62,318 nt of DNA from a bacterium CG_4_9_14_3_um_filter_65_15 (lineage in GTDB: Bacteria > Krumholzibacteriota > Krumholzibacteriia > LZORAL124-64-63), in assembly GCA_002790835.1 (NCBI GenBank), contig PFVX01000080.1:1-62318 (forward strand), written 5' to 3'. A program made the translations under genes and the position numbers. The notes below the pieces were generated by a model. The model had not been told where the DNA came from. It searched no databases and saw only the letters and a list, made by a program, of their open reading frames with translations. Of the stretch, positions 17,613-47,068 are shown piece by piece; positions within the stretch are counted from its first letter, which is position 1, and every line of letters begins with the position of its first letter.

Positions 17613-17615
17613 GGT

Positions 17616-20176: not shown

Positions 20177-20178
20177 AC

Positions 20179-21147: not shown

Positions 21148-21163
21148 CAGAACCCGATTTCTG

Positions 21164-21196: not shown

Positions 21197-21198
21197 GC

Positions 21199-22680: not shown

Positions 22681-22694
22681 CCGGGAAGGGCCGG

Positions 22695-28700: not shown

Positions 28701-28874
28701 GATCAGGTCGTGATGAGCATCGGCGAGGGACTGGACCTGCCGGCCGGCGGCCTGCTGTGCGATCCGCCGGCCGAGGGTCGTCAGCCCACCGTCGGCGGCA
28801 CCCGGCCGGAGCTGGACGACCAGGGCCGCGTCCGCATCCGGGCGTTGCCGGTCATCGTGACCTGGAGTCGCTGA
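25728..28874 (+). CDS. Large lipoprotein with discoidin and six-hairpin glycosidase-like domains
   Basis: A 1048-residue lipoprotein (lipobox L-T-G-C, C22). Order of parts: a beta-sandwich, possibly carbohydrate binding, at about 30-165; a discoidin/F5-8C-type module at about 180-305; a beta-rich domain to about 590; and a helical (alpha/alpha)6 domain at about 595-970 with YARSWIRDGAL near 617, HDSTGEFIHL near 678 and YWDDFWALRGLRDAV near 751. The helical part resembles GH15/GH63/GH65-like six-hairpin glycosidases. I cannot place it in a numbered family or name catalytic residues. It is the last gene of the importer operon and probably trims the sugar before uptake. Its end overlaps the convergent GH1 gene by 23 bp. 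Confidence 0.8.
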   Translation: MRAALPGLVSVLLACCGMLTGCGPQSPVSLQDPAVWTAHPADGVTMKLADEQGSLRLDFSFAGGGWAIARRTVDLDLPANYAFRFRLRGAGTANHLEFKLSDRSGENVWWHVERDVRWPDQWREISIPRRRIEFAWGPQGGGEIRHVAAIEFAVTAGGGGTGTVWIDGLELVPLDEVTGPPPPLVAQAGSQEKDHPDSAAVDGDSLTWWAPAPADTAPQLEIDTGRAREFSGLEVAWVPGRSAADCWVMVSLDGKTWQEPTQVRGRIGDREVFSLPETQARFVRLRMSRRPGDDGPALADLTLHPVDWATSPTEFFMRLACRSRPGIYPRGFLGRPTAWTVVGVDADDREGLLGADGAVEAGPQGFSIEPFLAVGGRLVTWHDVESVPSLIDGNLPVPQVAWEAGPWRLVVTALGIGEPGRSSVLARYRLENRGADPAEADLCLALRPFQVNPPSQTLNNPGGVARIETLERRGDLVLVDGKPGALFLRTPDAFGATTSAHGDVVEAYLDHGLLPTADTAQDPFAAASGAARFTLRVQPGAVEQVDVLLPLHDESPLPEGLDADAAQHQAVASWRKVRDTVVITGPPQAREFLDTLDAQVGWILVNRAGVGFQPGARSYARSWIRDGALTGDTLLRLGHAGEVRDFLTWFAPFQYPDGKVPCVVDRRGPDPVPEHDSTGEFIHLVVQYYRYTGDRELLREMWPRILAGVDYLEALLDTRRTDAYRQADKREFFGILPPSISHEGYAAKPMHSYWDDFWALRGLRDAVWVADGAGAGVATESQRLRLIAARDEFAADLQASIPAAMARHDIAHIPGCADLGDFDPTSTTIALDPAAGENLLPAGAIEATFAGYWDFFTARRDGAPWDAFTPYEVRTIGSAVRLGWRERVAELTDFFLAHRTPPGWRQWAEVVASDSLHARFIGDMPHTWVGSDFVRSGLDMFAYELRREELGGPALVLAAGLPAAWLREGGVEVEGLATPYGALSYRLYRGDDQVVMSIGEGLDLPAGGLLCDPPAEGRQPTVGGTRPELDDQGRVRIRALPVIVTWSR

Positions 28875-30213: not shown

Positions 30214-33200
30214 GGCACCGGACCCCGGGCGGCGCCGAGGGTGATCGCGACCACATGATGCCGGCCGTCGGAGGCCAGGGGCAGGCGGGCGGATCCGTTC
30301 ACCGGATCCAGGGCGCTTCCATCCAGGGCGACGGCGACGACGGCCTCGCTGCAGCCGGTGGGGTTGTCCACGGTGATGGTGTAGCGGGTTTCGTCCGGCC
30401 CCGGGATGCGCCAGGTCAGGCTGTAGCCCGGCCAGGAGTCGGGCACGCAGGGCTTGACGACCAGGGTGTCGCCCTCGGGGCGCAGACCGAGGATCGATTC
30501 GTACGCCACGCGCAGCATCCAGCCCGAAGAGCCCGTGTACCAGGACCAGCCGCCCCGCCCGATGTGGGGGTCGGCACCGTAGACGTCGGCCGCCATCACA
30601 TAGGGCTCCAGCTCATAGAGCTTCACGTCCTCGGGGGTTTGCGTGTGCCGGATGGGATTGATCATGTCCAGCAGGTCGGCCGCTTCGTTGCGCCGGCCCA
30701 TCTCGGCCAGAGCGCGGATGACCCACAGGGCGGCGTGGGTGTATTGGCCGCCGTTTTCCCGCACGCCGGCCACATAGCCCTTGATGTATCCCGGGTCGTG
30801 AGGGGAGTCCACGAAGGGCGGCGCCAGCAGGCGGATCAAGCCGTGCTCGCGGTCGATCAGGTGTTCCTGCAGCGCGGCCATGGCCTGCTCCGCCCGGTCG
30901 GCCGGCGCGACACCGGACAGCACCGACCAGGCCTGGGCCAGGGCGTCGATGCGACATTCGGAGTTGGCGCTGCTGCCCAGGGGGGCGCCGTCATCGTAAT
31001 ACCCGCGGCGATACCAGCTGCCGTCCCAGCCGACGTCGTTGAGGGCTGTGGTCAGGTGTCCGCGATGGGCCCGGTAGCGGGCCGCCCGGTCGTGATCCCC
31101 GCGCTTCTCGCACAGCGGCACGAAGCCGTCGATGATGGTCACCAGGAAAAAGCCCATCCAGACGCTTTCCCCGCGGCCTTCGCGTCCCACCCGATTCATC
31201 CCGTCGTTCCAGTCACCGGTGCCGAACAGCGGGAGTCCGTGCCCGCCCGTGCCCAGGGAGCGGTCCAGGGCGAGGCAGCAGTGTTCGTACACCGAGGCGG
31301 ACTGGCCGGACGGTTGCGGGTGGACGAATACCTCATCCTGGCCGGGCTCCAGTTCGGTTCCAGTCAGGTAGGGGGCCGACTCGTCGAGCAGGGCCGCATC
31401 GCCGGTCTGACGCACGTAATCCACCAAGGCGAAGGGAAGCCACAGCAGGTCGTCGACGAAGCGCGTGCGGATCCCCCCGTCGTGGGGCGGGTGCCACCAG
31501 TGCAGGACGTCGCCCTCGATGAACTGGTGGGAGGCGTGCAGCAGGATCTGGTTCCGGGTCAACTCGGGCCACAGGGGCATCAGGGAGAGAGAGTCCTGCA
31601 GCTGGTCCCGGAATCCGAAGGCTCCGCCGGATTGGTAGAAGGCGGACCGGGCCCGGATCCGGCAGGCCAGGGTCTGGTATCCCAGCCAGCCGTTGACCAT
31701 CAGGTCCAGGGGCCGCGACGGGGTCGAGATCTGCAGCCCTTGCAGCCCGTTGCGCCAGAACTCCCGGACCAGGGCGGCAGCCTGGGAGCCGGAGCCGGGA
31801 CGGGTGTAGTGCCGGTAGAGGGATTTGGCGTGATCGCGGTCCCCGCCCTCTCCCAACAGGAAGGTGACGGCGACGGTTTCCCCGGCCGGCACCCGGATGA
31901 GGGCCTGCAGGGCGAAGCAGGGATCCAGGCCCCCGCCGAGGCTCGGGTCCAGTTCGGGGGTGGCCAGCGCGGCGGGACGGGCGGGGTCGCAGGCCGCCCC
32001 GAGAAACGACCGCCGGTCACCGCTGGAATGAACGGCCAGGACATGGTCGTCCTGCGCGACTGCGGCAAAGGCCACCGCGTCCCTGAAAGGGCCGGCGGTG
32101 GGATTTTGCGCCAGCAGACCCTGTCCGTCGAATCCCGGGGTCGTGGCCACGAAGCGGCCGTGGCCATGGGGCGTTGCGCCCATCACCAGCTGCTGGTAGG
32201 CGAACAGGGACAGGTTGCGGGGCCGTGAGCTGTGGTTGGTCACCGTGACGGTGGTGATGCGGACCGGGTCGTCTGCGGCGACGGTCAGCAGGGTTCCGGT
32301 CTCCAGGTCGGCGGCGTCCGGCCGGCGCCGGCAATGACTGTAACCGAAACCGTGGGCCATGGTGTAACGGCCCCCGGCCGGTGTGGGGCCGGGAAGGCAT
32401 GAAAAATACGCCCCGTCGTCGTCGTCCCGCAGGTACAGGGCATCGGCGTGGGGGTCGAAGACCGGGTCGTTGAACCAGGGCGTCAGGCGATGCTCGCGGC
32501 TGTTGCCGAACCAGGTGCAACCGGCGCCGGTCTCGCTGACCAGGCAGCCGAAGTTGTCGTTGGCCAGGACGTTGATCCAGGGCTGGGGCGGCAGGCGCAG
32601 GTGGCCTTGGTCGTCGCAGGCGATGGTCATGGCATAGGCATGATCGAGCGCGGTGAAACCCCCGAGGCCGTTGGCGAATTCCCGCTCCGGGTCCGGCGCG
32701 GCCACCGCCGGGTTTCCCTGATCCACCGCTATCGGGGCCTCGGGACCCTGGATCGCCACCGCGACAGCGGCTTGGTCCCGCAAGAGGGATGCTTCAGGCC
32801 AGGAACCCTCGACCACCAGTCCGGAGCAGGCGACCAGCGCCTGCACCAGCTCTTGCGGGGCGGCGTCGGCAAGAATCCTGGCTCCCGGAGTGGCCGCTGC
32901 ACCCGGTGCGGCGACGACCATCTGGAAGTCCAACCCGAGGGCATGCTTGATCGCCGCCACCTTTTCCCAGCGATTTTCCCGGTCCTGCAACACCGTCACC
33001 AGGGGGAGGTCGGGATCAAGCCCGAGGGCGCCGAGCCGGGCGCGGGGATCCCCGGCGGCGGGCGACCGCGGCACGACGAACCTCCGGTCCCCGCCCATGA
33101 GAACGGCGCCCAGATGCTGGGTGTATTCCACCTCCGGAAGCGGAGCGGCGAGGTCGGTCACCGTGTCCCCGCTCATGGCCCGGAGGATTTCCAGCTTCGA

Positions 33201-34049
33201 GCCACAATGCTCCACGAGCCCGGCCGCCGCGGTTTCGTCATCGGCGATTCCGAGCAGGAAATCCAGGGTCAGGGTCTGGCCGGGATCCAGATCGAACGGG
33301 CAGCGTAGCGAAACCACCGGATCCAGGATATTGCCGATGGACCCGCTGAGTTCGGCTGCCGGGGTCAGGGCGGCCGGTGCGGACCACGGCCGGCCCCGCC
33401 CGAAGAAGCGGGCGCGGTCGGTTTCAAACGTGGGCTCGGTGGACGGAGCGCCCAGGAGGGCGTGGAAAAGAACCCGCGGGGATTCGTCCGCGCCCCGGGG
33501 ACGGCGTCGGACCAGCAGGGTCCGTTGGTCCCGGAGGTAGCGGGTCTGCAGGAACAGCTTGGAAAAGACCGGGTGGGCCTCGTGGGCTGCGGGATCGTTC
33601 AGGACGATTTCCGCCAGCGAGGTGATGTCCAGACGGCGCACGGTCGAACTGCGGTTGGTCAGGGTCAGGCGCCGATTCTCCACGATCAGCCCGGGCAGAA
33701 TGCGGGTATCCAGGGTTGCTACGATGCCCCGGCGTTCGTCGCCGGCGATGAAGTGGCCCGGATGCCAGGACGCGGTCCTGTGCCGGGGGTCAGCGCCGAG
33801 GGCCCAGAATTCCCCGGAATCCCTGTCGCGCAGGAAAAACACCAATCCCTGGCGGTTCGGTGGGTTGCCCGGGTTCCAGGCCGTCAAGGCGAGAGGGCGG
33901 CCGTCCCGGTCGCAGCGCGAAAATCCCGTTCCATCGGCCCGGACCAGGACCGAGTAGCGCAGGCCCTGCGGGGCGGTTCCCGTCAGGACCGCCGACCCGT
34001 TGATGAGCCCTGCCCCGGAGGTTACGGGCGATCGATCAGAATCTGACAC
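30210..34049 (-). CDS. GH94 family protein, 1,2-beta-oligoglucan phosphorylase-like
   Basis: A 1279-residue protein without a signal peptide, so cytoplasmic. It starts at GTG 34049 behind GGAG. Two beta-sandwich regions precede an (alpha/alpha)6 barrel (about 800-1170). The motifs FYQSGGAFGFRDQLQDS, W-H-P-P-H-D-G-G-I-R-T-R-F-V-D-D-L and G-T-G-D946-W-N-D949-G-M are those of the GH94 half of cyclic beta-1,2-glucan synthases and of 1,2-beta-oligoglucan phosphorylases. The enzyme would release glucose 1-phosphate from beta-1,2-glucan oligomers. It is roughly 150 residues longer than the usual phosphorylase size I recall. No GT84 domain is present, so it is not a synthase. Cellobiose-type specificity cannot be excluded. 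Confidence 0.85.
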   Translation of the reverse strand: MSDSDRSPVTSGAGLINGSAVLTGTAPQGLRYSVLVRADGTGFSRCDRDGRPLALTAWNPGNPPNRQGLVFFLRDRDSGEFWALGADPRHRTASWHPGHFIAGDERRGIVATLDTRILPGLIVENRRLTLTNRSSTVRRLDITSLAEIVLNDPAAHEAHPVFSKLFLQTRYLRDQRTLLVRRRPRGADESPRVLFHALLGAPSTEPTFETDRARFFGRGRPWSAPAALTPAAELSGSIGNILDPVVSLRCPFDLDPGQTLTLDFLLGIADDETAAAGLVEHCGSKLEILRAMSGDTVTDLAAPLPEVEYTQHLGAVLMGGDRRFVVPRSPAAGDPRARLGALGLDPDLPLVTVLQDRENRWEKVAAIKHALGLDFQMVVAAPGAAATPGARILADAAPQELVQALVACSGLVVEGSWPEASLLRDQAAVAVAIQGPEAPIAVDQGNPAVAAPDPEREFANGLGGFTALDHAYAMTIACDDQGHLRLPPQPWINVLANDNFGCLVSETGAGCTWFGNSREHRLTPWFNDPVFDPHADALYLRDDDDGAYFSCLPGPTPAGGRYTMAHGFGYSHCRRRPDAADLETGTLLTVAADDPVRITTVTVTNHSSRPRNLSLFAYQQLVMGATPHGHGRFVATTPGFDGQGLLAQNPTAGPFRDAVAFAAVAQDDHVLAVHSSGDRRSFLGAACDPARPAALATPELDPSLGGGLDPCFALQALIRVPAGETVAVTFLLGEGGDRDHAKSLYRHYTRPGSGSQAAALVREFWRNGLQGLQISTPSRPLDLMVNGWLGYQTLACRIRARSAFYQSGGAFGFRDQLQDSLSLMPLWPELTRNQILLHASHQFIEGDVLHWWHPPHDGGIRTRFVDDLLWLPFALVDYVRQTGDAALLDESAPYLTGTELEPGQDEVFVHPQPSGQSASVYEHCCLALDRSLGTGGHGLPLFGTGDWNDGMNRVGREGRGESVWMGFFLVTIIDGFVPLCEKRGDHDRAARYRAHRGHLTTALNDVGWDGSWYRRGYYDDGAPLGSSANSECRIDALAQAWSVLSGVAPADRAEQAMAALQEHLIDREHGLIRLLAPPFVDSPHDPGYIKGYVAGVRENGGQYTHAALWVIRALAEMGRRNEAADLLDMINPIRHTQTPEDVKLYELEPYVMAADVYGADPHIGRGGWSWYTGSSGWMLRVAYESILGLRPEGDTLVVKPCVPDSWPGYSLTWRIPGPDETRYTITVDNPTGCSEAVVAVALDGSALDPVNGSARLPLASDGRHHVVAITLGAARGPVP

Positions 34050-34135: not shown

Positions 34136-34162
34136 AGAACACTTGACACCTTTCTGGATTTA

Positions 34163-34176
34163 TGAAACCGTTTACA
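34163..34176. promoter_or_regulatory. LacI-family operator upstream of the regulator gene
   Basis: TGAAACCGTTTACA fits TGNAANCGNTTNCA at every fixed position. It lies 106 bp before the regulator's GTG start and 82 bp from the first operator, so one repressor tetramer or two dimers could control both divergent operons and the regulator itself. Confidence 0.7.
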
Positions 34177-34281
34177 GGGAACACAAGAATGTTTCATCCG
34201 GGACTCAGGACGACCCGGAATTCCAGGGAAGATCGTTCCGCACCACGGACGGGTCGGCAGGATCGAGCCAAAGGTACGGAT

Positions 34282-35379
34282 GTGGCGACAATTCGCGATG
34301 TGGCCCGTGCAGCGGGGGTATCCATAGCTACGGTATCCCGAGTTTATAACAACCAGACCTTGGTCAATCCTCAAACAGCCCAACACATTCTCAAAATCGC
34401 AGGCGATCTGGATTACGTTCCCAACCCTGCCGCACGGAGCCTGACCACCCGCCGAACCCACACCTTTGGTGTTCTTTTGCCCGACCTTTTTGGCGAATTC
34501 TACTCCGAACTCATCCGCGGAATCGATCTCATCGCCCACCGCAACGGATTCCAGATTCTCCTGTCCAGCTTCTTCCGCAACAGCGAGGACCTGGTCATGA
34601 CCAGCAAGGCCATGCTGGGCCGCATCGACGGCGTGATCATGATGGCGACGGACGAACGGTCCATCAATACCGCAGCCAAAGTGCGGAAAAAGGTGCCCGT
34701 CGTCCTATTGAATCCCTGCAAGATGATCGAGGGCTGCCACGCCGTGGCCGTCGACAACGTCCGGGGGGCGAAAGATGCGGTATCGCACCTGATCGGGTTG
34801 GGTCACCGGAACATCGCCATGGTGGCTGGTCCCGAGGAAAATATCGACGCCAGGGATCGTTTGACGGGATTTCGACAGGGCTTGACCGAAGCCGGGCTGG
34901 ATCCCGGGGCCGCCCTGGTGGTCCCGGGGGATTTCCGGGAACTGGCCGGCTACAAGGCCGGGGCGACCATTCTGCGCCACAAACCCCGACCTACCGCGGT
35001 TTTCGCCGCCAACGACGGCATGGCCATCGGACTGCTGGCCTCCCTGCGCGAGTGGGGGTTCGGCGTCCCGGACGACATCGCGGTTGTGGGGTTCGATGAC
35101 GTCGCCTTGGCCGGTTTCATGAATCCACCCCTGACCACGGTGCATGTCGATGCCAGCGGCCTCGGGGGCCACGCCGTGGAAATGATGCTCGAGGTTCTGG
35201 CCGGCGGCGCGGATTCCGAAACCCGCCGGATCGTTTTGTCCCCCAGTCTCAAAATCCGTCAATCATGCGGGACCCTCGATCCCGCTCAGCTCGTGAGAAG
35301 GCCGCTGATGGAGCCCAGGCCAAGCAATCGTGATGACGCAACACCTCGCCTCCAAGGCGAGGAGGAGGTTCAACCATGA
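34282..35379 (+). CDS. LacI-family transcriptional regulator
   Basis: A 365-residue repressor. GTG 34282 was chosen because the helix-turn-helix (T-I-R-D-V-A-R-A-A-G-V-S, with ATVSRVYNN) must begin at residue 2, and AAAGG lies upstream; longer frames add an unlikely leader. The hinge helix is at about 50-57 (N-P-A-A-R-S-L), followed by a ribose-binding-type sugar-sensing core to about 335. An extra tail of some 25 residues follows. It is encoded next to two LacI-type operators and between the cytoplasmic enzymes and the surface-protein operon. Its stop overlaps the start of the CBM9-like gene (ATGA), so it is made with the surface proteins. The inducer is probably a short glucan or its product. 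Confidence 0.92.
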   Translation: MATIRDVARAAGVSIATVSRVYNNQTLVNPQTAQHILKIAGDLDYVPNPAARSLTTRRTHTFGVLLPDLFGEFYSELIRGIDLIAHRNGFQILLSSFFRNSEDLVMTSKAMLGRIDGVIMMATDERSINTAAKVRKKVPVVLLNPCKMIEGCHAVAVDNVRGAKDAVSHLIGLGHRNIAMVAGPEENIDARDRLTGFRQGLTEAGLDPGAALVVPGDFRELAGYKAGATILRHKPRPTAVFAANDGMAIGLLASLREWGFGVPDDIAVVGFDDVALAGFMNPPLTTVHVDASGLGGHAVEMMLEVLAGGADSETRRIVLSPSLKIRQSCGTLDPAQLVRRPLMEPRPSNRDDATPRLQGEEEVQP

Positions 35380-37268
35380 AAAAAATGTTCCTGACCTTTG
35401 CGGCTTGTCTGGCCCTTGTGCTGACAGGTGCAGCCGTAACCCAGGCCGCGACCCAGCGCCTGGACGCCATCTGGGCGCGCACGGCCGCCGACAGCGTCGT
35501 CCTGGACGGCGTTCTGGACGAGGCGGACTGGGCCCAGGCCGAAAGTTACGTCATCGATTACGCCACCGACGCCGGGATTCCCGGCAGCGGGTGGAAGAGC
35601 GAAAGCGGCTGGGCTCCCATCGATCCCACGCACGCGGTCCTGAACTTCCTGGTACGCAACAACCAGCTCTACATGGGGGTGTACATCCAGGACCAGTCCA
35701 TCGGCGGCAGCACCCAGTTCAATCGTTTCGACGGCCTGCTCATGGGGCTGAAGGACCACACCTTGGACTCCTGGCCCAAGCCCGCTTCCGAGTATTTCTA
35801 CTCCTGGTGGCACGACGAGTTGACCGATCCCCAGCCGACCGGCACCATGCCGGGCTTCATCGGCGCGTGGGCGGAATTGCCCCACGGAGCTCCCCGCACG
35901 CCGGAACAGATCGCGGCCTGGGACGCGGTGACGGTGGTCGACGGGGTGACCAACGACGACGCGGTCCAAGATGTCGGTTACACCATCGAAATGCGCTTCG
36001 ACCTGACCGTCATGGGTTATGACGTGACCCAGCCCGGCGGCGACGTGGTGGAATGGAACATCTCCCTCTACGATTGCGACTGGTTCTGGCCCATCAACGT
36101 GAACACCTTCAGCTCGAACCGAGTCTGGTGGCAGGGGCCCTGGGGCAACACCTCCTGGTACAACGAAGTGCGGATCTTCGGCGCGCCCGAGGTGACGACC
36201 ACTTCGGGCCCGGCGCCCGTCATCGCGCCGGAAATGTCCATCAAGGAGCTCGCGGACATCCCCACCATCGACGGTGTGCTGGGTGAAGCGGTCTGGACCA
36301 ACCCGGACGTGTACACCTTCGATATCCAATATGACGGCGGAACGGCTCTCTACGACACCTACGACGGGGTCGGGCCCTTCCGGGCCGGCCAGTTCCAGCC
36401 CGACGTCAACGGCGGCCTGGCCTTCATCGCCGACCCCGCCGACGCCACGGTCAAGCTCTACCACCGGGGGAACATGCTCTACATGGGCTTCGAGTCCCGC
36501 GATGCGGTGGTCCAGTACCATCCGGACCTGAACCGTTGGGACGGATTCATCGTGACCATCGACGACCGCGTCGAGCGGGGATCCGACAACCAGATGCTCA
36601 CGCGTCGCCTCTCCTTCCAGGTGGGCGATACGGGCCAGGCCGTGGCTCAGGACGACCTGCTGAGCTTCGTGACCGGGGGTTCGGCGCAGGTGGCGGTGTC
36701 GCTGATGGCCGGCACAACGGTCGACACCTTCGGCACCCAGGCCGACACGGGGTTCACGGCGGAGCTCGCCCTCGATCTGACCAGCCTGGGTTATCCCGCA
36801 GACCTCGGTGACGGGGCCTTCTTCTTCGGCGTGACCCTTCTGGACGGGGATTCCTTCCTGCCGATCACCGACAGCTACGGCACACGGACCTGGTGGTACC
36901 GGGAATTCCCGGGCGTGTGCTGCCCGACCTGGGCCCATCTGGTGTCCAGCCTCAGCGGCGTGCCCGATCTGGGCGAAGGCCGCGGGGGATATGCCATCAC
37001 CACGGGCGGCAGCGGTCCCTCTTCGCGTCCGGACATCCGTTTCGCCATGCCCGACCGCAACCTGGTCACCCTCGAGGTCTACGACGTGCGGGGACGCCTG
37101 GTTGAGAAGCGGCCCCTGGGCGAAATGGGCAGCGGCGAAAACGAGATCATGATCTTTCCCGCGCGCCGACCGGGCGCCGGTGTCTATCTGTATCGCCTGC
37201 ACATGGCGAATCCCGTCACCGGAATGCCCCGCGGCGTCCTGACGGGCAAGGTGTTGCTGATCAAGTAG
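35376..37268 (+). CDS. Surface protein with two CBM9-like domains and a sorting tail
   Basis: A 630-residue protein with a signal peptide cleaved near A-V-T-Q-A-A (about residue 25). Two DOMON/CBM9-like sugar-binding domains follow, at about 32-265 and 280-540. Each opens with the same I/L-D-G-V-L-x-E-A-x-W motif and includes a W-x-x-N/F-rich edge. The last 75 residues form a C-terminal sorting-type domain ending in G-K-V-L-L-I-K. It should bind glycan at the cell surface. The start overlaps the regulator's stop and lies 7 bp after GAGGAGG, an optimal ribosome site. A 13-bp hairpin separates it from the receptor gene. Confidence 0.85.
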   Translation: MKKMFLTFAACLALVLTGAAVTQAATQRLDAIWARTAADSVVLDGVLDEADWAQAESYVIDYATDAGIPGSGWKSESGWAPIDPTHAVLNFLVRNNQLYMGVYIQDQSIGGSTQFNRFDGLLMGLKDHTLDSWPKPASEYFYSWWHDELTDPQPTGTMPGFIGAWAELPHGAPRTPEQIAAWDAVTVVDGVTNDDAVQDVGYTIEMRFDLTVMGYDVTQPGGDVVEWNISLYDCDWFWPINVNTFSSNRVWWQGPWGNTSWYNEVRIFGAPEVTTTSGPAPVIAPEMSIKELADIPTIDGVLGEAVWTNPDVYTFDIQYDGGTALYDTYDGVGPFRAGQFQPDVNGGLAFIADPADATVKLYHRGNMLYMGFESRDAVVQYHPDLNRWDGFIVTIDDRVERGSDNQMLTRRLSFQVGDTGQAVAQDDLLSFVTGGSAQVAVSLMAGTTVDTFGTQADTGFTAELALDLTSLGYPADLGDGAFFFGVTLLDGDSFLPITDSYGTRTWWYREFPGVCCPTWAHLVSSLSGVPDLGEGRGGYAITTGGSGPSSRPDIRFAMPDRNLVTLEVYDVRGRLVEKRPLGEMGSGENEIMIFPARRPGAGVYLYRLHMANPVTGMPRGVLTGKVLLIK

Positions 37269-37279
37269 GGCCGTGAGGG

Positions 37280-37310
37280 CCGGTGGAGGGGGAGCGCCCC
37301 CCTCCACCGG
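37280..37310 (+). other. Strong hairpin between the CBM9-like and receptor genes, no T run
   Basis: CCGGTGGAGGGGG at 37280-37292 pairs perfectly over 13 bp with 37298-37310, leaving a 5-base loop. What follows is TGCTTGTTGC, so it is not a normal terminator. It may protect the upstream message or tune the ratio of the abundant binding protein to the receptor. Confidence 0.6.
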
Positions 37311-37347
37311 TGCTTGTTGCGGGGGACCAACCGAAGGTGGAAACCTG

Positions 37348-40116
37348 GTGCTGCGAACGAGAGTCAGACCCGGAATCTCCCAGCGACTGCTGGCCATGGC
37401 GCTGAGCGCGGTCGTGTGCCTTTGCGCCCTGCAGGCTCCGGTGCAGGCCGGGACGACCGGCACGGTCTCCGGTAAGGTCACCGACCAGGGAGGGCGACCG
37501 GTGATCGCCGCCACCGTCCAGATCGTCGGCCTGCGACTGGGCGCCTACACCAACACCGAGGGCGAATTCACGATCCTGAACATCCCGCCGGGAACCTATG
37601 ATGTCAAAGCCAGCCGGCTCGGCTTCAACGCGGTGACCCTCACCGGTGTCGTGGTCTCGGCGGACAAGACCGCTCGCGCCGAATTCAAGATGGGCGACAC
37701 CACTCTCAAGACCGAGGAAGTCGTGGTGGTCGCCGAGCGGCCGCCGGTCGACCTGAAGAAGACCAGCTCCCAGACGAGCCTCGACTCCAAGGAAATCGAA
37801 CAGCTGCCGGTGCAGGATCTGAACGATGTCGTCAACCTGCAGGCCGGCGTGGTGGACGGGCATTTCCGCGGCGGACGCCAGGAAGAGGTCAACTACCAGG
37901 TCGACGGCGTGAGCGTCAACAACGCCTTCGACAACTCGTCCAGCCTCAAGATCGACCGCTCCCTGTTGCAGGAAGTCCAGGTGATCAGCGGAACCTTCGA
38001 CGCGGAATTCGGTCAGGCCATGAGCGGGGTCGTCAACGCGATCCTCAAGCAGGGCACGGAGAATTTCGAAGCCTCCGGCGAGATCTATACCGGTGGGTTC
38101 TTCTTCCCCGGCCGGGAAAAAGCGCGCTTGATGGGCGTCACCCCTCCTCAGACCTTGAGGCGCGCCGATGACGGCTCCCTCCATCTGGCCGAGGCGCCGA
38201 GCCACGACGACACCCACCATCTGACCGGGACGCAGAGCTACCAGCTCACTCTCAGCGGACCCCTGCCCCTTGAGCAGACCACCTTCCTGGCCAGCGGGCG
38301 GTACTACCAGTTCGACGACTACATCTACGCCGAGCGGCTATTCAATCCCGGCGACGACGTGGAAGATCCGACCGACCCGGGCAGCCCCTTCATCGCCACC
38401 GGCGACGGCAAGCGTGAAGCGCTGGGATACAGCAACGAGTGGTCGGGCGTGGTGAAGGTCACCAGCAACGCCCTGTCCAACACCAAGCTCAACTACCAGG
38501 CCATCTTCAACGGACGCAAGGGCCGGCCCCAGAACTACGAGTTCCGCTACATGCCCGACGGCCTGTCGATCCAGCGGTCGATCTCGATTTCCCACGGCCT
38601 GGATCTGACCCGGACCCTGGGCACCGCGACCTTCCTCGACCTCAGTCTGCGGCAGAACTACTTCGAGTATACCGACCACCTCTATGACATCGTCGTCGAC
38701 TCTCTGGGGAACTACGTCGGATCCCCCTACGACGATTTGCCGCAGCTGGATTCGCAAACCAATTTGGGGGACTGGTTCTACCAGGGCGCCCAGCTGAACC
38801 ACTACATCCAGAAGACCAACACCTACATCGCGAAGGGTTCGGTGGTCAGCCAGCTCAACCCGATCCACCAGATGAAGACCGGGTTCGAGCTCAGCCTGCC
38901 CGAGGTCAAGTTCGGCAACGACGTCTACTTCACCTACGGCGAGGGCACACTGGTCCCTCACATGGATGAGCCCCCGGACTATCCCGCCCCCAAGACCTAC
39001 TACCCGGTGATGGGCGCGGCGTACATCCAGGACCAGGCCGAATCCAAGAACCTGATCGTGCGGTTCGGCATGCGCGTGGATTACTTCGACGCCCGGTCGA
39101 CCATTCCCAGCGACCTGGCCAATCCCGCCAACACCATCGCCGGCGCGCCCGAGTCGCACCCCCAGAGCACGTCGGTGAAGGCGGCGTTTTCCCCGCGGCT
39201 GGGCGTGGCCTATCCCATCGAGGACAAGGCGGCCATCCATTTCGCCTACGGACACTTCCGCCAGTTTCCCTCGGTGGGGACCATGTTCGCCAACTCGGAC
39301 TACGACATCCTGGGCAACCTGCAGGCGGGCGAGGTCCGCTACGGATTGTTGGGCAACCCCGACGTCAGGCCCGAGGAGACCGTGCAGTACGAGGCCGGTT
39401 ACAAGCAGATCATCAACCCGGACCTGGGTTTCGATCTGACGATCTTCTACAAGGACATCCGCGAACTGCTGGGGGTCGAGTTCATCGAGACCTACACCGG
39501 TGCGGAGTACACGCGGCTGACCAACGTGGATTTCGGCAACATCCTGGGCGTCACCCTGGCGATCGACCACCGGAAGGTGGGGCCCTTGAGCCTGGCGCTG
39601 GACTACACCTGGCAGCAGGCCCTGGGCAACTCCAGCGACCCCAGCGAGACGGCCAACCGCGCCGCCGCGGGCGAGGATCCCCGGCCGCGCCTGGCCCCCT
39701 TCAACTGGGACCAGCGCCACACCGTCAACTTGACCGCAGCCCTGAGCGAGCCGGGCAGGTACAGCGTCAGCGCCGTGGGCCGGTTCGCCAGCGGCCAGCG
39801 CTACACCCCGGTGAGCGAGGCCGCGTTCGGTTTCAACAGCGAGACCAACTCGGGCACCAAGCCCTCGGCCTTCCTGGTGGATCTGCGCGCCGAGAAGACC
39901 ATCGGCGCCGACAGTCGGGGCGGCGTATTCCTGCGGGTCTTCAACCTGTTCGATGCCCGCTACTTCAACGGACCCGTGTTCTCCACCACCGGCAGTCCCT
40001 ACTATTCCCGCACCGCGAGCCCCAGCGAGGAGATCGCCCTGCGGAATCCGACCCGTTTCTACTCTCCGCGGCGCATCGAACTCGGGGTGCGGTGGAGTCT
40101 GGGAGGAGCCCCATGA
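37348..40116 (+). CDS. TonB-dependent receptor
   Basis: A 922-residue outer membrane receptor. GTG 37348 starts the signal peptide (cleaved near A-P-V-Q-A-G, about residue 36) better than upstream codons. A carboxypeptidase-regulatory-like Ig domain spans about 38-115, the plug about 140-235 (with V-D-G-V-S-V-N-N and EFGQAMSGVVNAI), and the rest is a 22-strand barrel of aromatic-rich strands with long loops. It belongs to the Oar/CirA-like group, not SusC. The stop overlaps the next start (ATGA). It is powered by a TonB/ExbBD system such as that at 15.8-18.3 kb. In context it imports glucan oligosaccharides. Confidence 0.93.
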   Translation: MLRTRVRPGISQRLLAMALSAVVCLCALQAPVQAGTTGTVSGKVTDQGGRPVIAATVQIVGLRLGAYTNTEGEFTILNIPPGTYDVKASRLGFNAVTLTGVVVSADKTARAEFKMGDTTLKTEEVVVVAERPPVDLKKTSSQTSLDSKEIEQLPVQDLNDVVNLQAGVVDGHFRGGRQEEVNYQVDGVSVNNAFDNSSSLKIDRSLLQEVQVISGTFDAEFGQAMSGVVNAILKQGTENFEASGEIYTGGFFFPGREKARLMGVTPPQTLRRADDGSLHLAEAPSHDDTHHLTGTQSYQLTLSGPLPLEQTTFLASGRYYQFDDYIYAERLFNPGDDVEDPTDPGSPFIATGDGKREALGYSNEWSGVVKVTSNALSNTKLNYQAIFNGRKGRPQNYEFRYMPDGLSIQRSISISHGLDLTRTLGTATFLDLSLRQNYFEYTDHLYDIVVDSLGNYVGSPYDDLPQLDSQTNLGDWFYQGAQLNHYIQKTNTYIAKGSVVSQLNPIHQMKTGFELSLPEVKFGNDVYFTYGEGTLVPHMDEPPDYPAPKTYYPVMGAAYIQDQAESKNLIVRFGMRVDYFDARSTIPSDLANPANTIAGAPESHPQSTSVKAAFSPRLGVAYPIEDKAAIHFAYGHFRQFPSVGTMFANSDYDILGNLQAGEVRYGLLGNPDVRPEETVQYEAGYKQIINPDLGFDLTIFYKDIRELLGVEFIETYTGAEYTRLTNVDFGNILGVTLAIDHRKVGPLSLALDYTWQQALGNSSDPSETANRAAAGEDPRPRLAPFNWDQRHTVNLTAALSEPGRYSVSAVGRFASGQRYTPVSEAAFGFNSETNSGTKPSAFLVDLRAEKTIGADSRGGVFLRVFNLFDARYFNGPVFSTTGSPYYSRTASPSEEIALRNPTRFYSPRRIELGVRWSLGGAP

Positions 40117-43100
40117 TGGCCCGATGGTTCCCGTCGGCATCCCGGAAGCGCTTTTTGCGTCGGCCAAGCGGTGTGGCCGCTCCGCTGGCGCTGGGGTTGC
40201 TCGTGGTCCTTTCCGTGGCCGCGGTGGCCGATGTCGTCACGCCGGTCCCCCCGGATCAGCGGGGCCAGCTGGACGCCGAACGCTCCGGACAGCACGACGC
40301 CAACAACATGCGCACGGTCTTCTGGAACTACGGCATGGTGGGCGACTACCCGCGCGATCCCGGCAACGTGGACCTGAGCGTCTTCCACTCGGTGGAAGTG
40401 CCCAAGGGCAGCGGCATGAACTACAGCGACGGGGTGACGCCCTTCGTGCTGGCCAAGGTCACCCAGGCCGACGGATTGGACGCCTACATCATGGAGACCG
40501 GCTTCCGGGAGCGGCAGGGCACCAGCCCCTACTACAACCGGGTCATGCGGTTCGAACCGCGGCCGGGATATTTCCAGCCTGATCCCGGGCTGAACCCCGG
40601 GCGCTCGCCCGCTCTGAGCAACGACCCGCGCACCTGGCCGGATTTCTGGCCCGACCGGCTGGACGAACCCAGCGATCCCGGCTGGCCGGGCTCCTGGAAC
40701 GGGTATTTCGGCAAGCAGGTCGTCGCCGACCAGGAAAGCTACGTGGTTTTGGACGACAACTTCTACGACGCGTGGCCCTTCTATCCCGACAGCCGCGACT
40801 CCACCCGCCGAGGCCTGGGCCTGCGCATCGAGGTCCGCGGGTTCCAGTGGGCCAACCCCCAGGCCCGCAACGTCATCTTCTGGCACTACGACATCACCAA
40901 CGAGGGCACGACGGATTACGACGACAACATCATTTTCGGGCTGTACATGGACTCCGGCGTGGGCGGGTCCGCCCTGTCCTGCGACGGCATCTTCGAATCC
41001 GACGACGACAACGCCTTCTACCAGGACGAATTCAACGGCCAGCGGATCAACCTGGTCTACACCTGGGACAACGGCGGCCACGGCCGCGACCTGACCGGTT
41101 CCTGCGCCACGACGGGATACCTCGGCTACGCCTACATGGAGACCCCCGGCAATCCCACCGACGGCCTGGACAACGACCTCGACGGGATCACCGACGAGAG
41201 GCGCGACGGGGGCGAGGGCACCCTGCTGATCGGCGAAGACCAGATCCTCTCCTACGTGGCGGCCAACTACGACCAGGCCCGCTTCGAAGCCGTCTACGGC
41301 CCGGTGACCGAGACTCCCGCCTACCGCGCGGGCCTGTGGTGGACCGGTGACGAGGACATGGACTGGACGGTCGAGGGCCACGACGTGGGTGCCGATGGTC
41401 TGGCCGAGACCGGCGACATCGGCGAGGGCGACGGAATCCCCACCGCCGGTGAACCCAACTTCGACGGCACGGATCTGAACGAATCCGACCAGATCGGATT
41501 GACCGGTTTCAAGCTCAACCGGATCCGCCCGGGACAGGGCAATCCCAACCAGGAAACCGACGGGATCGTTTTCTTCACCGACAACCACGATTGGCCCGAA
41601 AGACTCTACAACCAGTTCTCGAGCCCGGATTCGACCACCCGTTTCGATCCGCCCCTGGCCTCCAACTACAACATCGGCTTCCTGTTCGCCTCGGGGCCGT
41701 TCCGGCTCGCCGCGGGTCAGACCGAACGCTTTTCCCTGGCTCTGGCCTACGGGGCGAGCCTGGAAGACCTGTCCCGCAACACCCAGACCGTCCAGCAGAT
41801 CTACAACGCCAACTACCGGTTCGCGGTCCCGCCGCCGGCCCCGACGGCCACCGCCGAGACGGGTGACGGCTGGGTGCGGTTGTCCTGGGACGATGTTGCC
41901 GAACGCGGCGCCGACCCGGTCACCGGGGAATACGATTTCGAGGGTTACCGCATCTACCGGTCCACGGATCCCGATTTCCGCGATCCCCAGGTCATCTCCA
42001 CCGGCACCGGCAGCGGACCCTTGGGCAACGGCAAGCCCATCGCCCAGTTCGACCGCATCGACGGGCAGAGCGGTTTTTCGGAGCTGACCATCGAAGGCGT
42101 GGCCTACTATCTGGGCACCGAGACCGGGCTGACCCACACCTGGACCGACTACAGCGTCACCAACGGCCAGCAATACTACTATGCGGTGACGGCCTACGAT
42201 TTCGGTTCCACGGATCCCAAGTTCAACTTCTATCCCTCGGAGAACGCCATCGCTCCGTCGCGCACTCCCCGCGGCGGGCTGGTTTTGCCGAGCAACGTGG
42301 TCGCCGTCAGGCCCGACCCGCGGGTGCTGGGCTTCGTGGCGGCTACCGCCGAGGAGGCCGATCAGGCCGGCGGCCGGGGTTCGGGATCGGTGGCCATCGA
42401 AGTGGTCAACTCCAACGAGGTGCCCGACGGTCACGATTTCCAGGTGAGTTTCGCCGTGCCGCATCCGGACAGCCTGCGGGCTTCGCACTACCTCCTGACC
42501 GATCTGACCACCGGCGAGATCCTGTTCGAGGAAGGCAAGGACCTGATCGGCCAGGGCATCGGCCCGGTGGGCGAGGGCCTGTTGCCGGTGGTGGAGACCC
42601 CGGCCCAGGTGGCCGTCGATACCGCCGGGACCGGGTTCCGCGAGGGAAGTTCCACCGACGCCACCCTGGTGTTGTCCTATCAGAAAGTGCTCTCCATCAA
42701 CCAGCCGCGGCCCGGGTTCCCCGACGACCTCACCCTCGAGTTCTTCGACAGCATCGTGGACACGTCCCTCGGCGGGTTCCCCTTCGTGGAGACGCCGGCG
42801 CGCTTCAAGGTCATCGCCCACAGCGAGGACGGGGACCGGCAACTGGATTTCCGCTTCCGCGACCGCGACGGCGACTACACCCTCAGCGGGTCGAACGAAC
42901 TGATCGACGTGGTCACCTACCTGGAAGACGATCCGGCCACGCCCTACGTGACCTGGCGTTTGCAGCTCGACCCGAATGCGGAGGCGCCCACCGTCCTGCC
43001 CGGATCCGGGGATGTCTTCGAGGCGCGTCTGGTCCGGCCCTTCTCGAGCGACGACGTCTTCACGTTTTCCACCCACGGCGCCTACGTCGATCCGTCGGCG

Positions 43101-43421
43101 GCCAAGGGCAAGCTCGAACCCTACGTGGTGCCCAATCCCTACATGGCCTCGGCCGGTTTCGAGCCCGAGCGGTTTGCCGTGTCGGGTCGCGGGGTGCGCA
43201 GGATCGAATTCCGGGGGCTGCCGGCTCGATGCACCATCCGCATCTACAACCTCCTAGGGGAACTCGTGCAGACCCTGCAGCACGACGGGTCGGATGACGG
43301 GTTCGTGGCCTGGGATCTGCGGACCAAGGACCAGCTCGATGTGGCCCCGGGGCTGTACATCTTCCATGTGGACGGCGGGGAAACAGGAACGGCGACCGGC
43401 AAGTTCGCCATCGTGAAATGA
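40113..43421 (+). CDS. Large surface protein paired with the TonB-dependent receptor
   Basis: A 1102-residue secreted protein starting at ATG 40113, behind GGAGGAG, with an unusually long basic N-terminal region before the signal helix (cleaved near A-V-A-D, about 40). A calcium-loop-like D-G-L-D-N-D-L-D-G-I-T-D-E segment is near 355, a fibronectin type III-like domain lies at about 575-700 (containing WVRLSWDD and the F-E-G-Y-R-I-Y-R strand), and a C-terminal sorting-type domain covers the last 85 residues (Y-V-V-P-N-P-Y entry, G-K-F-A-I-V-K end). It has no SusD similarity that I can see. Its position, translationally coupled to the receptor and before the PorV-like gene, suggests a surface substrate-delivery role. 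Confidence 0.82.
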   Translation: MMARWFPSASRKRFLRRPSGVAAPLALGLLVVLSVAAVADVVTPVPPDQRGQLDAERSGQHDANNMRTVFWNYGMVGDYPRDPGNVDLSVFHSVEVPKGSGMNYSDGVTPFVLAKVTQADGLDAYIMETGFRERQGTSPYYNRVMRFEPRPGYFQPDPGLNPGRSPALSNDPRTWPDFWPDRLDEPSDPGWPGSWNGYFGKQVVADQESYVVLDDNFYDAWPFYPDSRDSTRRGLGLRIEVRGFQWANPQARNVIFWHYDITNEGTTDYDDNIIFGLYMDSGVGGSALSCDGIFESDDDNAFYQDEFNGQRINLVYTWDNGGHGRDLTGSCATTGYLGYAYMETPGNPTDGLDNDLDGITDERRDGGEGTLLIGEDQILSYVAANYDQARFEAVYGPVTETPAYRAGLWWTGDEDMDWTVEGHDVGADGLAETGDIGEGDGIPTAGEPNFDGTDLNESDQIGLTGFKLNRIRPGQGNPNQETDGIVFFTDNHDWPERLYNQFSSPDSTTRFDPPLASNYNIGFLFASGPFRLAAGQTERFSLALAYGASLEDLSRNTQTVQQIYNANYRFAVPPPAPTATAETGDGWVRLSWDDVAERGADPVTGEYDFEGYRIYRSTDPDFRDPQVISTGTGSGPLGNGKPIAQFDRIDGQSGFSELTIEGVAYYLGTETGLTHTWTDYSVTNGQQYYYAVTAYDFGSTDPKFNFYPSENAIAPSRTPRGGLVLPSNVVAVRPDPRVLGFVAATAEEADQAGGRGSGSVAIEVVNSNEVPDGHDFQVSFAVPHPDSLRASHYLLTDLTTGEILFEEGKDLIGQGIGPVGEGLLPVVETPAQVAVDTAGTGFREGSSTDATLVLSYQKVLSINQPRPGFPDDLTLEFFDSIVDTSLGGFPFVETPARFKVIAHSEDGDRQLDFRFRDRDGDYTLSGSNELIDVVTYLEDDPATPYVTWRLQLDPNAEAPTVLPGSGDVFEARLVRPFSSDDVFTFSTHGAYVDPSAAKGKLEPYVVPNPYMASAGFEPERFAVSGRGVRRIEFRGLPARCTIRIYNLLGELVQTLQHDGSDDGFVAWDLRTKDQLDVAPGLYIFHVDGGETGTATGKFAIVK

Positions 43422-43465
43422 CGACCGAAGGCCGGCGCGGCCGGCACTCTTACGCGGGGATGGAA

Positions 43466-44476
43466 ATGAAGAAAGCAGTGCTGATCCTGGTGATTCTCTC
43501 CTGCGGAGCCGCAAGCGGCGCCGTGGCCCAGACCCAGGTCGGAAGCACCATCGGCACGTTCCTGCGCATCGAACCGAGCGCCAGGGGCGCCGCCGTCGGC
43601 AATGCCGGATCCGCGTTGCCGGGCGGGATGGAAGCCGTCTACTACAACATCGGCGCCCTGGGTCTCATCGAGAATTCCGAGGTGCAGTACTCCCGCACCC
43701 TGTGGTTCGAGGACATCAACCTCGACTACGTGGCGGTCGGCCTTCCCATCCGCGGGGTGGGCAACTTCCTGGTCAGCGTCACGGCTCTCAATTCGGGTGA
43801 CATCGACGTCCGCACCGTCGAGCAACCGCTGGGAACGGGTGAACTCTACTCCGTCTCGAACGTCGCGCTGGGGATCGGGTTCGGCAAGCGGATCACCAGC
43901 CGCTTCTGCGCGGGGATCCAGGCCAACTACGTGACCGAACGCATCTGGACGGCTTCGGACAAGATGGTCACCTTCAATCTGGGCACGACCTACCGGCTGA
44001 CCGAGAGCGGTGTCCTGATGGCCTTCAGCCTGGCCAATCTCGGGACGCGCGCCAGGTACAGCGGCAGCGGGCTGGGAATCCGCTTCGACCCCGATCCCGA
44101 TTCGTACGGCGACAACAGCGCCCTGCCCGCCGAGCAATCCACGGACAACTTCCCCCTGCCGGGGCTCTTCCGGATCGGCCTGAGTATTCCGTACCGCGCC
44201 GGGACTTCCTCCACCCTGCTTTTCCTGGTCGAGGGCCTGCATCCCAACGACAACAGCGAAAGCGTGAACCTGGGTGTGGAGTGGGAACTCTGGAAGATCC
44301 TGTCCCTGCGTGGAGGCTATCAGACCCTGTTCCAGACCGACGGCGAACTGGGTCCGACCCTCGGGTTCGGGGTGGCGCGTGATCTGGGCACGTCCCATTA
44401 CAACGTCAACTACGCTTGGGCGGATCACGAACATCTGGGCAGTACGCACCGGGTGACGGTGACGATCGAGTTCTAG
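43466..44476 (+). CDS. PorV/PorQ-family outer membrane protein
   Basis: A 336-residue beta-barrel protein. The start at 43466 follows GGGGA and opens the signal peptide MKKAVLILVILSC (cleaved near A-V-A-Q-T). The segment S-A-R-G-A-A-V-G-N-A-G-S-A at about 36-48 and the later A-V-Y-Y-N-I-G are the marks of the PorV/PorQ (UPF0164-like) family, relatives of the FadL fold. In Bacteroidota, PorV helps transfer type IX cargo to the surface. Here it lies after the receptor and its big partner, both in the same operon, and 29 bp before the surface GH144 gene. It may be a dedicated shuttle for these sorting-tail proteins. Confidence 0.85.
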   Translation: MKKAVLILVILSCGAASGAVAQTQVGSTIGTFLRIEPSARGAAVGNAGSALPGGMEAVYYNIGALGLIENSEVQYSRTLWFEDINLDYVAVGLPIRGVGNFLVSVTALNSGDIDVRTVEQPLGTGELYSVSNVALGIGFGKRITSRFCAGIQANYVTERIWTASDKMVTFNLGTTYRLTESGVLMAFSLANLGTRARYSGSGLGIRFDPDPDSYGDNSALPAEQSTDNFPLPGLFRIGLSIPYRAGTSSTLLFLVEGLHPNDNSESVNLGVEWELWKILSLRGGYQTLFQTDGELGPTLGFGVARDLGTSHYNVNYAWADHEHLGSTHRVTVTIEF

Positions 44477-44505
44477 GTGCCGGAAGGCACAAGGAGCAGC
44501 ATCCT

Positions 44506-46158
44506 GTGAAGACACCGAAAAGCTTCCCCCTTTCGTCGCACGCCGCCCTCGGGCCGATCGTGGCCTTGACGCTGATCGTGCTGGCGCTGACCGCCGGGCC
44601 CGCCTCCGCCGCCCGCAACGTCACCCTGCCGGCCCAGACATCCCTGACCGACGAGGCGTTGCTGGACAGCCTGCAGCGCACGGCGTTCCTGTATTTCTGG
44701 AACGAGGCCAACCCGGTCAACGGCCTGATCCGCGACCGCAGCCAGGCGGGGTCCGCCTGCAGCATCGCCGCCCAGGGCTTCGGGATCACGGCCATCTGCA
44801 TCGCCATCGAACACGGCTGGATCACCCGGGAAGAGGGGCGCGCCCGCATCCTGCTGGGCATGCAGACCCTCTGGAACGGTCCCCAGGGCGACACCGAATA
44901 CAACACCAACGGCTACAAGGGACTGTTCTACCACTTCCTGGACATCAACAACGGGCTGCGGACCTGGAGCAGCGAGCTGTCGACCATCGACACGGCCCTG
45001 CTCATGGTCGGGGTGATCGACGCCAAGCAGTATTTCTCCTCCGCCGATCCCGGCGATGCGGAGGTGCGTGCCCTTTCGGATTCTCTGTATTACCGGGTGG
45101 ACTGGGAGTTCGTGCGCAACGGCGGCTACGGCATCCGCATGGGCTGGAAGCCGCTCACGGGATTCAGCGGCTACGGGACCTGGGTCGGCTACAACGAAGC
45201 CATGGTCCTCTACCTGCTGGCCCTGGGGTCCCCCACGCACCCGGTTCCCGACTACACCTGGGCCTACTGGACCGGCGGCTACAACTGGAGCACGCAGTAC
45301 GGGCAGACCTACGTGATCTTCCCGCCCCTCTTCGGCCATCAGTATTCCCATTGCTGGATCGATTTCCGCGGCATCCGGGACGCCTACATGAACCTGCACG
45401 GGATCGATTATTTCGAGAATTCCCGCCGGGCCACCTATGCCGCCCGGGATTACTGCATCGACAACCCCTTCAACTGGGTCGGGTACGGCGCAAACGTGTG
45501 GGGATTGACGGCCTCGGACGATCCGGGGGGCTACCTGGCTCACGGTGCACCGCCGGCCCAGAGCGACAACGGAACCATCACGCCCACGGCGGCCGCGGGT
45601 TCCATCGCCTTCGCGCCCGAGATCGTCCTGCCCGCCCTGCACTACATGTACGACAACTACGGTTCGGTGCTCTGGGGCGAGTACGGGTTCAAGGACGCCT
45701 TCAACCTGACCCAGTTCTGGTGGGCCAGCGACTTCCTGGGCATCGACCAGGGACCGATCATCATCATGATCGAGAATTACCTCAACGAATCGGTCTGGAA
45801 CCGGATGATGGCCAACGCCGACATCCGCAACGGACTGGTCAGGGCCGGATTCAGCACGGTTTCGGCGGCCCCGCACGAGCCCTTGGTCGCCGAGGGCATG
45901 ATCGAGCTGGGGCAGAATTCGCCCAACCCCTTCCAGGGGTCGTCCGTCATTTCCTATCGGGTGGCCGAACCGGGCGAAGTGACCCTGAGCCTGTACGACG
46001 TGCGCGGCCGCCGGGTGCGCACACGCCGGACGGAGGCAACCGACAAGAGTATGCAACAGATCACCTTGGACGCCGAGGGTCTGCCCAGCGGCGTCTATCT
46101 CTACTCCCTCGCGTCCCATGGTCGGACGGAGTGGAAAAGGTGCATCATCATCAAGTAG
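44506..46158 (+). CDS. GH144-type endo-beta-1,2-glucanase-like enzyme with a surface-sorting tail
   Basis: A 550-residue protein starting at GTG 44506, 9 bp behind AAGGAG. The signal peptide is cleaved near P-A-S-A-A (about residue 36). The glycoamylase-like (alpha/alpha)6 domain covers about 45-460 with T-A-F-L-Y-F-W-N, L-F-Y-H-F-L-D, V-G-Y-N-E-A (E231), LFGHQYSHCWIDFRG and FLGIDQGPI, all shared with the lipoprotein at 21199. From about 465 a C-terminal domain opens with N-S-P-N-P-F-Q-G and ends in I-I-I-K, typical of type IX cargo. This would be the cell-surface enzyme that cuts polymer to oligosaccharides for the receptor. Confidence 0.87.
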   Translation: MKTPKSFPLSSHAALGPIVALTLIVLALTAGPASAARNVTLPAQTSLTDEALLDSLQRTAFLYFWNEANPVNGLIRDRSQAGSACSIAAQGFGITAICIAIEHGWITREEGRARILLGMQTLWNGPQGDTEYNTNGYKGLFYHFLDINNGLRTWSSELSTIDTALLMVGVIDAKQYFSSADPGDAEVRALSDSLYYRVDWEFVRNGGYGIRMGWKPLTGFSGYGTWVGYNEAMVLYLLALGSPTHPVPDYTWAYWTGGYNWSTQYGQTYVIFPPLFGHQYSHCWIDFRGIRDAYMNLHGIDYFENSRRATYAARDYCIDNPFNWVGYGANVWGLTASDDPGGYLAHGAPPAQSDNGTITPTAAAGSIAFAPEIVLPALHYMYDNYGSVLWGEYGFKDAFNLTQFWWASDFLGIDQGPIIIMIENYLNESVWNRMMANADIRNGLVRAGFSTVSAAPHEPLVAEGMIELGQNSPNPFQGSSVISYRVAEPGEVTLSLYDVRGRRVRTRRTEATDKSMQQITLDAEGLPSGVYLYSLASHGRTEWKRCIIIK

Positions 46159-46261: not shown

Positions 46262-47068
46262 ATGTTCAAGTTCATCAAGATTTCCGCCGTGGTCGCCTTG
46301 GCCCTCGTGGCCTTGACCGCCGGGCTGGCTCAAGCCACCATCGCGCCTTCCAGCGCGGTCGTCATCGAGCGGGTCTTCAACGATTCGTTCGCTTCGATCC
46401 TCACGGTGAACAACAGCTACCCGGGCCTTATCGACATCAACGACGAGGCTTCCGGACCCCTGGGTTGGGCCAACCTCCACGTGTGGCGTTTCTCCAGCGA
46501 CGGAGTGACCGCCCAGCAATTCGACAACACCGACGGTTTCGCCTTTTTCGCGGACGTGACCATTTCGGGCACGGGCAACGGAGAGGCCGGCCTGCAGATC
46601 GCTCCCTGGTGGTCCCCCAACGTCGACGGCCGCTTCAACGTGCGGACCACCGACGGCGAAGTGGCCTGCTTCGGTGGCCGTCTGCCGTTCTATTCTTTCA
46701 CCGGTAGCAACGGCGTGCACTACGTCAAGGGTACGACCGTGCACATGGGTATGATCTACACGCCGAACGTCGAGATGACCTTGGCCATGCCGGCCACCAT
46801 CGAGTACATCTATGACGACGGCACGGCGTACTCCAGCGGTCCGATCGCCTTCGACGAGGGCAATCCCTTCGAGAATCCCCCGCACGGCGTGTTCGGCATC
46901 CTCTCGCCGGCCTACGTCGGCGGCCACATGCAGTTCAACGACATGGCCGGCTCCGGCGCCGGTTCGAACCTGAATGCGACCTGGTCCAACATCGTCTTCC
47001 AGGATCTGGGTACGGTGGTTGGCGACGAGGACACGAGCTGGGGCAATGTGAAGTCCCTGTTCCGGTAG
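46262..47068 (+). CDS. Secreted protein ending in an SWGNVKSLFR tail
   Basis: A 268-residue protein with a signal peptide cleaved near L-A-Q-A-T (about residue 25). The start follows GGAG. The mature part is beta-rich, probably a jelly-roll (a concanavalin/LamG-like fold is possible but not shown), with an internal T-D-G-F-A-F-F-A-D segment. The last ten residues, S-W-G-N-V-K-S-L-F-R, match the end of the lipoprotein at 9598. It follows the surface GH144 gene by 103 bp and is closed by its own terminator. It may extend the glucan operon or be separate. The function is unknown. Confidence 0.72.
   Translation: MFKFIKISAVVALALVALTAGLAQATIAPSSAVVIERVFNDSFASILTVNNSYPGLIDINDEASGPLGWANLHVWRFSSDGVTAQQFDNTDGFAFFADVTISGTGNGEAGLQIAPWWSPNVDGRFNVRTTDGEVACFGGRLPFYSFTGSNGVHYVKGTTVHMGMIYTPNVEMTLAMPATIEYIYDDGTAYSSGPIAFDEGNPFENPPHGVFGILSPAYVGGHMQFNDMAGSGAGSNLNATWSNIVFQDLGTVVGDEDTSWGNVKSLFR

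Follow-up and report, generated by a model that had tools for sequence, protein, structure and literature searches.

The window analysed here is the whole contig PFVX01000080.1 (62,318 nucleotides, assembly GCA_002790835.1) of the bacterium CG_4_9_14_3_um_filter_65_15, from the phylum Krumholzibacteriota, and it carries on its forward strand three consecutive genes that a first-pass annotation, made from the letters alone, had taken for a transport module without SusD. The first gene encodes a TonB-dependent receptor of 947 residues (37273–40116, starting at GTG 37273 or, alternatively, at GTG 37348), the second a putative surface protein, hereafter BIG (40113–43421, from ATG to stop), and the third an outer-membrane protein of the PorV/PorQ family (43418–44476). 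As the annotation had stated, the open reading frame of BIG encodes 1102 residues, the receptor gene overlaps with it and the PorV-like gene is next; moreover, both junctions are ATGA overlaps, in which the ATG of BIG at 40113 lies over the receptor stop and the first ATG of the PorV-family gene, at 43418, over the stop of BIG. The three genes are predicted to be translationally coupled. BIG is laid out as a signal peptide, a β-supersandwich-like N-domain (about residues 41–574), a stalk of FN3-like and further β-sandwich parts, and a tail of the type 9 secretion system (T9SS) type at about residues 1001–1102.

In the FCB (Fibrobacteres–Chlorobi–Bacteroidetes) group, SusCD pairs are regarded as the route for large-glycan uptake. 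Profile matches revealed in the receptor a CarboxypepD_reg-like extension, a plug and a barrel (PF13715, PF07715, PF00593), and its score against the SusC/RagA-type model (TIGR04056) was 49 bits vs a cut-off of 368. SusD (PF07980) had no match in the own genome, while the Bacteroides control gave matches, and it was likewise absent in 38 of 50 module-bearing genomes. Since Roseithermus has both the module and seven SusD matches, SusCD and the module can coexist. BIG as a SusD homologue was ruled out by profile, no Pfam family being matched, and by fold, as the protein is modelled almost entirely as β-structure and SusD is not among the fold matches shown; thus, the absence of SusD similarity noted in the first reading was borne out at both levels. 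No convincing lipobox was found among 73 BIG orthologs, the three pattern matches lying away from the end of the signal peptide.

Scanning 84,980 species, each represented by a single genome, gave 214 candidates, and the best 79 loci with a BIG ortholog were kept; their records are labelled Krumholzibacteriota, Eisenbacteria, Ignavibacteria, Calditrichota/Caldithrix, KSB1, Rhodothermaceae and others. The receptor gene was directly 5′ of BIG in all 70 loci with enough flank, and the PorV-family gene directly 3′ in all 71 loci that could be read on that side. The co-occurrence of the three families elsewhere, which had been set beforehand as the check on the first reading, is therefore not rare and goes far beyond chance. 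A tailed protein designated S630, a PF10091 glucanase and a GH94 enzyme were encoded in 66, 66 and 54 of the 79 loci, respectively, in varying positions. In the own phylum 20 of 80 genomes matched, and in 19 the match spanned almost the whole N-domain model. A mirror-tree analysis on the orthologs was uninformative, because all gene pairs correlate (r 0.66–0.85) via their shared species history and the partial correlations were inconsistent; for this reason, distances were compared among paralogues.

Ten module-bearing genomes had 11–53 PorV-family matches and 7–64 receptor plugs each. In five of these genomes, among the best-scoring matches listed, the weak end aside, 36 of 53 PorV-family genes had a plug on the same strand 2.5–8.8 kb upstream, in one case the plug was downstream and in two it lay on the opposite strand; under a rough null of random placement, upstream plugs numbered 4.9 on average and 11 at most over 1000 trials. 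Twenty regions were read, four of which are the β-1,2-glucan ortholog itself, and most of them showed the order receptor, BIG-family protein, PorV, including cases with paralogues distant from the BIG of the window. A second arrangement (lipoprotein, receptor, PorV, with no BIG-family gene between) was observed in regions L148 and L149. Two contigs of the own genome carry, in one case (C90), a tailed protein, a lipoprotein, a receptor and a PorV-family protein and, in the other (C94), a receptor, a tailed protein of 956 residues and a PorV-family protein, the 956-residue protein resembling BIG only in the tail and in part of the FN3 region. The paralogous trios co-diversify: over 14 trios, the distances correlated at 0.83 for receptor and BIG and at 0.75 for both receptor–PorV and BIG–PorV (Mantel p ≤ 0.0002 each), and within genomes the values were 0.80 for receptor and BIG and about 0.5 for the pairs with PorV. 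Among the neighbours of these trios we found tailed CBM20/CBM48 proteins (L154, L155), GH13 with a sugar ATP-binding cassette (ABC) transporter (L150), and GH94, GH2 and PF10091 with CBM30 (L156).

By profile-profile comparison the tail of BIG is homologous to that of the neighbouring glucanase (96.5%, E 8e-10), which passes PF18962 (37.4 vs a cut-off of 27), and 75 of 76 BIG tails have Lys as the last residue. Over 27 loci, the conservation of BIG was 0.715 in the tail and 0.593 in the body; in the glucanase and in S630 the tail was the less conserved part (0.386 vs 0.554 and 0.371 vs 0.433, respectively). The BIG tail is thus conserved far above those of the neighbouring cargo, which fits a dedicated PorV-type shuttle. 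PorV has been reported to recognise every type A tail (PMC12618676). One such tail was seen in the translocon, bound together with the loops of PorV; a conserved Lys makes a bond to PorV, and conservation of the contact surface is otherwise poor (PMC10994853). That BIG is an ordinary type A cargo of the general PorV is disfavoured by its tail conservation, 0.715 vs 0.37–0.39 in the neighbours.

The PorV-family protein of the window (NF033709, 142 bits vs a cut-off of 90) does not reach the equivalog cut-offs for PorV or PorQ and is therefore regarded as a member of the family rather than PorV itself. The own genome encodes SprA (summed 500 bits vs 200), and a PorU-type C25 protease adjoins its PorV-family gene nearest true PorV. 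The module PorV proteins form one clade, separate from this PorU-linked PorV and apart from six own-genome paralogues, on a branch with a Shimodaira–Hasegawa-like approximate likelihood ratio (SH-aLRT) support of 98, the order outside that branch being unsure owing to long branches. The PorV-family protein is probably a dedicated shuttle or anchor of BIG, and the earlier suggestion that it helps to place the large protein on the surface gains indirect support from the unusually conserved tail and from the separate clade. A dedicated shuttle gene directly 3′ of the cargo gene is also known for type B cargo with PorP/SprF-like shuttles; by contrast, the BIG tail resembles type A and its candidate shuttle belongs to the PorV/PorQ family (PMC12618676). 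On two other contigs of the own genome (C64 and C50, regions L100 and L104), PorV-family genes stand directly 3′ of an M6-metalloprotease-like tailed protein and of a tailed protein of 2002 residues, so that large T9SS cargo may often have a dedicated partner from the PorV family. Three BIG-family paralogues in receptor–PorV trios (L133, L135, L145) have tails extended beyond the usual KFxIK end, terminating in PQKQLPRF, EQQMLKVY and EKERLSNF, which possibly represent a second tail type.

No solved relative of BIG was found, the sequence match to 3mpc being weak (E 0.15). The full model had a predicted local distance difference test (pLDDT) of 83 and a predicted template modelling score (pTM) of 0.74, and since the fold search with the whole protein was dominated by FN3-type β-sandwich matches, the N-domain was modelled alone (pLDDT 82.6, pTM 0.84). 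This model resembles the β-supersandwich domains of GH94, GH15-like and cyclic-glucan-synthase enzymes, a predicted likeness of fold of moderate strength, which is not proof of homology; that the matched part of those enzymes is the supersandwich would follow, in our own reading, from the lengths and from the model having no long helices. The FN3-like parts of the first reading hold at the level of fold, alongside other β-sandwich parts, and less so in sequence, where 3mpc is the match; its calcium-loop-like part probably corresponds to an acidic DxDxDG-type loop (about residues 351–363) in which D353, D355, G358 and E362 are invariant. The majority-residue conservation of BIG was 0.65–0.86 at residues 51–700, dropped to about 0.5 in the stalk and reached about 0.8 in the tail. 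A further contig of the own genome (C91, L101:491-3280) encodes a tailed protein of 930 residues whose N-terminal part aligns with the N-domain of BIG (hhalign 97.5%); this contig is short, and neither a receptor nor a PorV was found next to the gene.

By homology, the glucanase, a GH94 enzyme of β-1,2-glucan type and a sugar ABC transporter occur together at the locus, which would thus be a β-1,2-glucan utilisation cluster. The tailed PF10091 enzyme (44416–46158, forward strand, true start probably slightly downstream) is closest to XCC2207, studied as XcSGL in work on β-1,2-glucanases (PMC12102758). Directly 5′ of the receptor gene, on the same strand, S630 (35376–37268) is a secreted protein with a T9SS-type tail, possibly a surface glycan-binding protein, and is preceded by a LacI-family regulator (34162–35379). 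A GH1 β-glucosidase-type enzyme (28852–30213) and an open reading frame without evident signal peptide (30210–34049) lie on the reverse strand. Further upstream, on the forward strand, we found a second PF10091 glucanase-type enzyme (20071–22680, true start further downstream) with an N-terminal lipoprotein-like signal, and the sugar ABC transporter (22677–25731), with its binding protein at 22677–24023 and permeases at 24020–24910 and within 24499–25731. Adjoining the glycan locus, a reverse-strand cluster of TonB, ExbD, ExbD and ExbB (15828–18332) may be the energiser of the receptor or serve the whole cell. The forward strand also carries, at 25518–28874, an open reading frame of 1118 residues, whose true start probably lies around 25.7 kb. 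Its product combines an F5/8 type C domain with a part that looks like an (α/α)6 glycosidase but matches no Pfam enzyme family. Last in the operon, also on the forward strand (46262–47068), comes a secreted protein of 268 residues of no known family, present in 14 of the 79 related loci, mainly in close relatives.

A similar cluster has been reported in Ignavibacterium album, whose GH35 enzyme acts on β-1,2-gluco-oligosaccharides and in which a TonB-dependent transporter was speculated to import the products (PMC8861115). The two clusters share GH144-type glucanases, a GH94 resembling the synthase C-terminal domain, an ABC binding protein and the proposed transporter; unlike here, a BIG-like protein and a PorV-family gene are not mentioned in the accessible part of that report (PMC8861115). 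The SusCD importers of Bacteroidota (TIGR04056 and PF07980) likewise combine a CarboxypepD_reg-extended TonB receptor with a surface-protein gene directly downstream, inside glycan-utilisation loci and with many paralogues per genome. They differ in that the receptor of the window stays far under the SusC cut-off and in that its partner, which neither sequence nor fold identifies as SusD, lacks a lipobox, ends in a T9SS-type tail and is accompanied by a PorV-family gene. The vitamin B12 system BtuBG of Bacteroides is also a TonB receptor capped by a non-SusD surface partner and offers, by analogy, a precedent for a lid other than SusD; by contrast, BtuG is a lipoprotein with a seven-bladed β-propeller, and, as far as the available text goes, neither a T9SS tail nor a PorV partner is described there (PMC10404256). 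No description of the receptor–BIG–PorV trio was found in the literature searched, which left out most subscription journals.

Taken together, we consider it fairly probable that the three genes form a single SusD-independent, T9SS-delivered outer-membrane uptake module, here for β-1,2-glucan fragments. BIG would cross the outer membrane via the type 9 translocon, and the cognate PorV-like protein would take over its tail and keep it on the surface beside the receptor. The T9SS-tailed glucanase would make glycan fragments, which the N-domain of BIG may capture and hand to the receptor; BIG would in this way play the part of SusD with a different fold and no lipid anchor, as a substrate-binding lid on the receptor. 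Import by the receptor would use TonB–ExbBD energy, and the periplasmic glucanase, the ABC transporter, GH94 and GH1 would finish the pathway. The earlier interpretation is thus supported in part: the transport module without SusD is sustained by the cross-phylum synteny, the glycan-catabolic context, the paralogous recurrence and the co-diversification of receptor and BIG, and the PorV role as shuttle or anchor indirectly.

Several observations weigh against this uptake module. The trio is also frequently linked to genes for GH94 and glucanases, and linkage by itself is therefore no proof of contact; the putative sorting tail of BIG, called a sorting tail in the first reading, stays under the curated T9SS cut-offs in single-sequence scans (TIGR04183, 14.5 bits vs 23), but is homologous to the glucanase tail; the TM-score by query of the N-domain reached 0.34 at best; and some paralogous trios are near FeoB, penicillin amidase or M14 peptidase, with no obvious glycan genes, so that not every trio need serve glycans. 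Moreover, contact of BIG with the receptor is something that we only infer, and this leaves room for BIG to be a PorV-anchored surface glycan-binding protein (SusE/SusF-like) or an adhesin, which would concentrate the substrate without capping the receptor. Multi-domain β-sandwich stalks are typical of surface adhesins, and in the own genome the PorV-family genes of C64 and C50 come after tailed proteins, and the stretches read there show no receptor between the two or next to them. We regard this explanation as unlikely, since no testable ortholog has receptor and BIG apart, since among the paralogues co-diversification is tighter between these two than between either of them and PorV, and since the SusE/F-like place is already filled by separate tailed starch-binding or S630 proteins.

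The N-domain is very highly conserved, many of its acidic and aromatic residues being invariant, and its fold is like that of domains of carbohydrate-active enzymes, as could also be expected if BIG were a surface enzyme of an undescribed family, cutting or rearranging the glycan before uptake. This is quite improbable, as the resemblance spans the non-catalytic supersandwich, the pathway enzymes are already present at the locus and BIG paralogues occur in α-glucan contexts too; furthermore, the model has only short helices and therefore, as predicted, no (α/α)6 catalytic barrel. Finally, proteins encoded in one operon often make no contact with each other, and the glucanase and S630 carry T9SS tails as well, but it is very hard to believe that the three are mere operon neighbours, with the PorV-like protein serving the tailed enzymes and BIG unrelated to transport, since the enzymes shift or drop out while the trio keeps its order and adjacency, the trio recurs with other enzymes, and the specially conserved tail is that of BIG.

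What is new here is the proposed uptake module as a variant of the ‘TonB receptor with surface partner’ type. More tentatively, and with somewhat more doubt than confidence, the trios of Krumholzibacteriota, Eisenbacteria, Ignavibacteria, Calditrichota, KSB1 and Rhodothermia could be a distinct, SusD-independent class of receptor complex, each specific for a nutrient: the type 9 system would export a lid with a β-supersandwich domain, a cognate PorV-family barrel would hold this lid on the TonB receptor, and each genome would have many paralogues serving different glycans. As Roseithermus sacchariphilus, a named strain with a complete genome, carries the module, it is experimentally testable. 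If true, a recurrent SusD-independent alternative would explain how these phyla, among them the little-studied source phylum of the window, may feed; it would assign a role to a whole class of large T9SS-tailed proteins that are so far uncharacterised, show why these phyla have so many PorV-family genes, and imply that the type 9 system helps to assemble receptor complexes, beyond secreting enzymes and adhesins.
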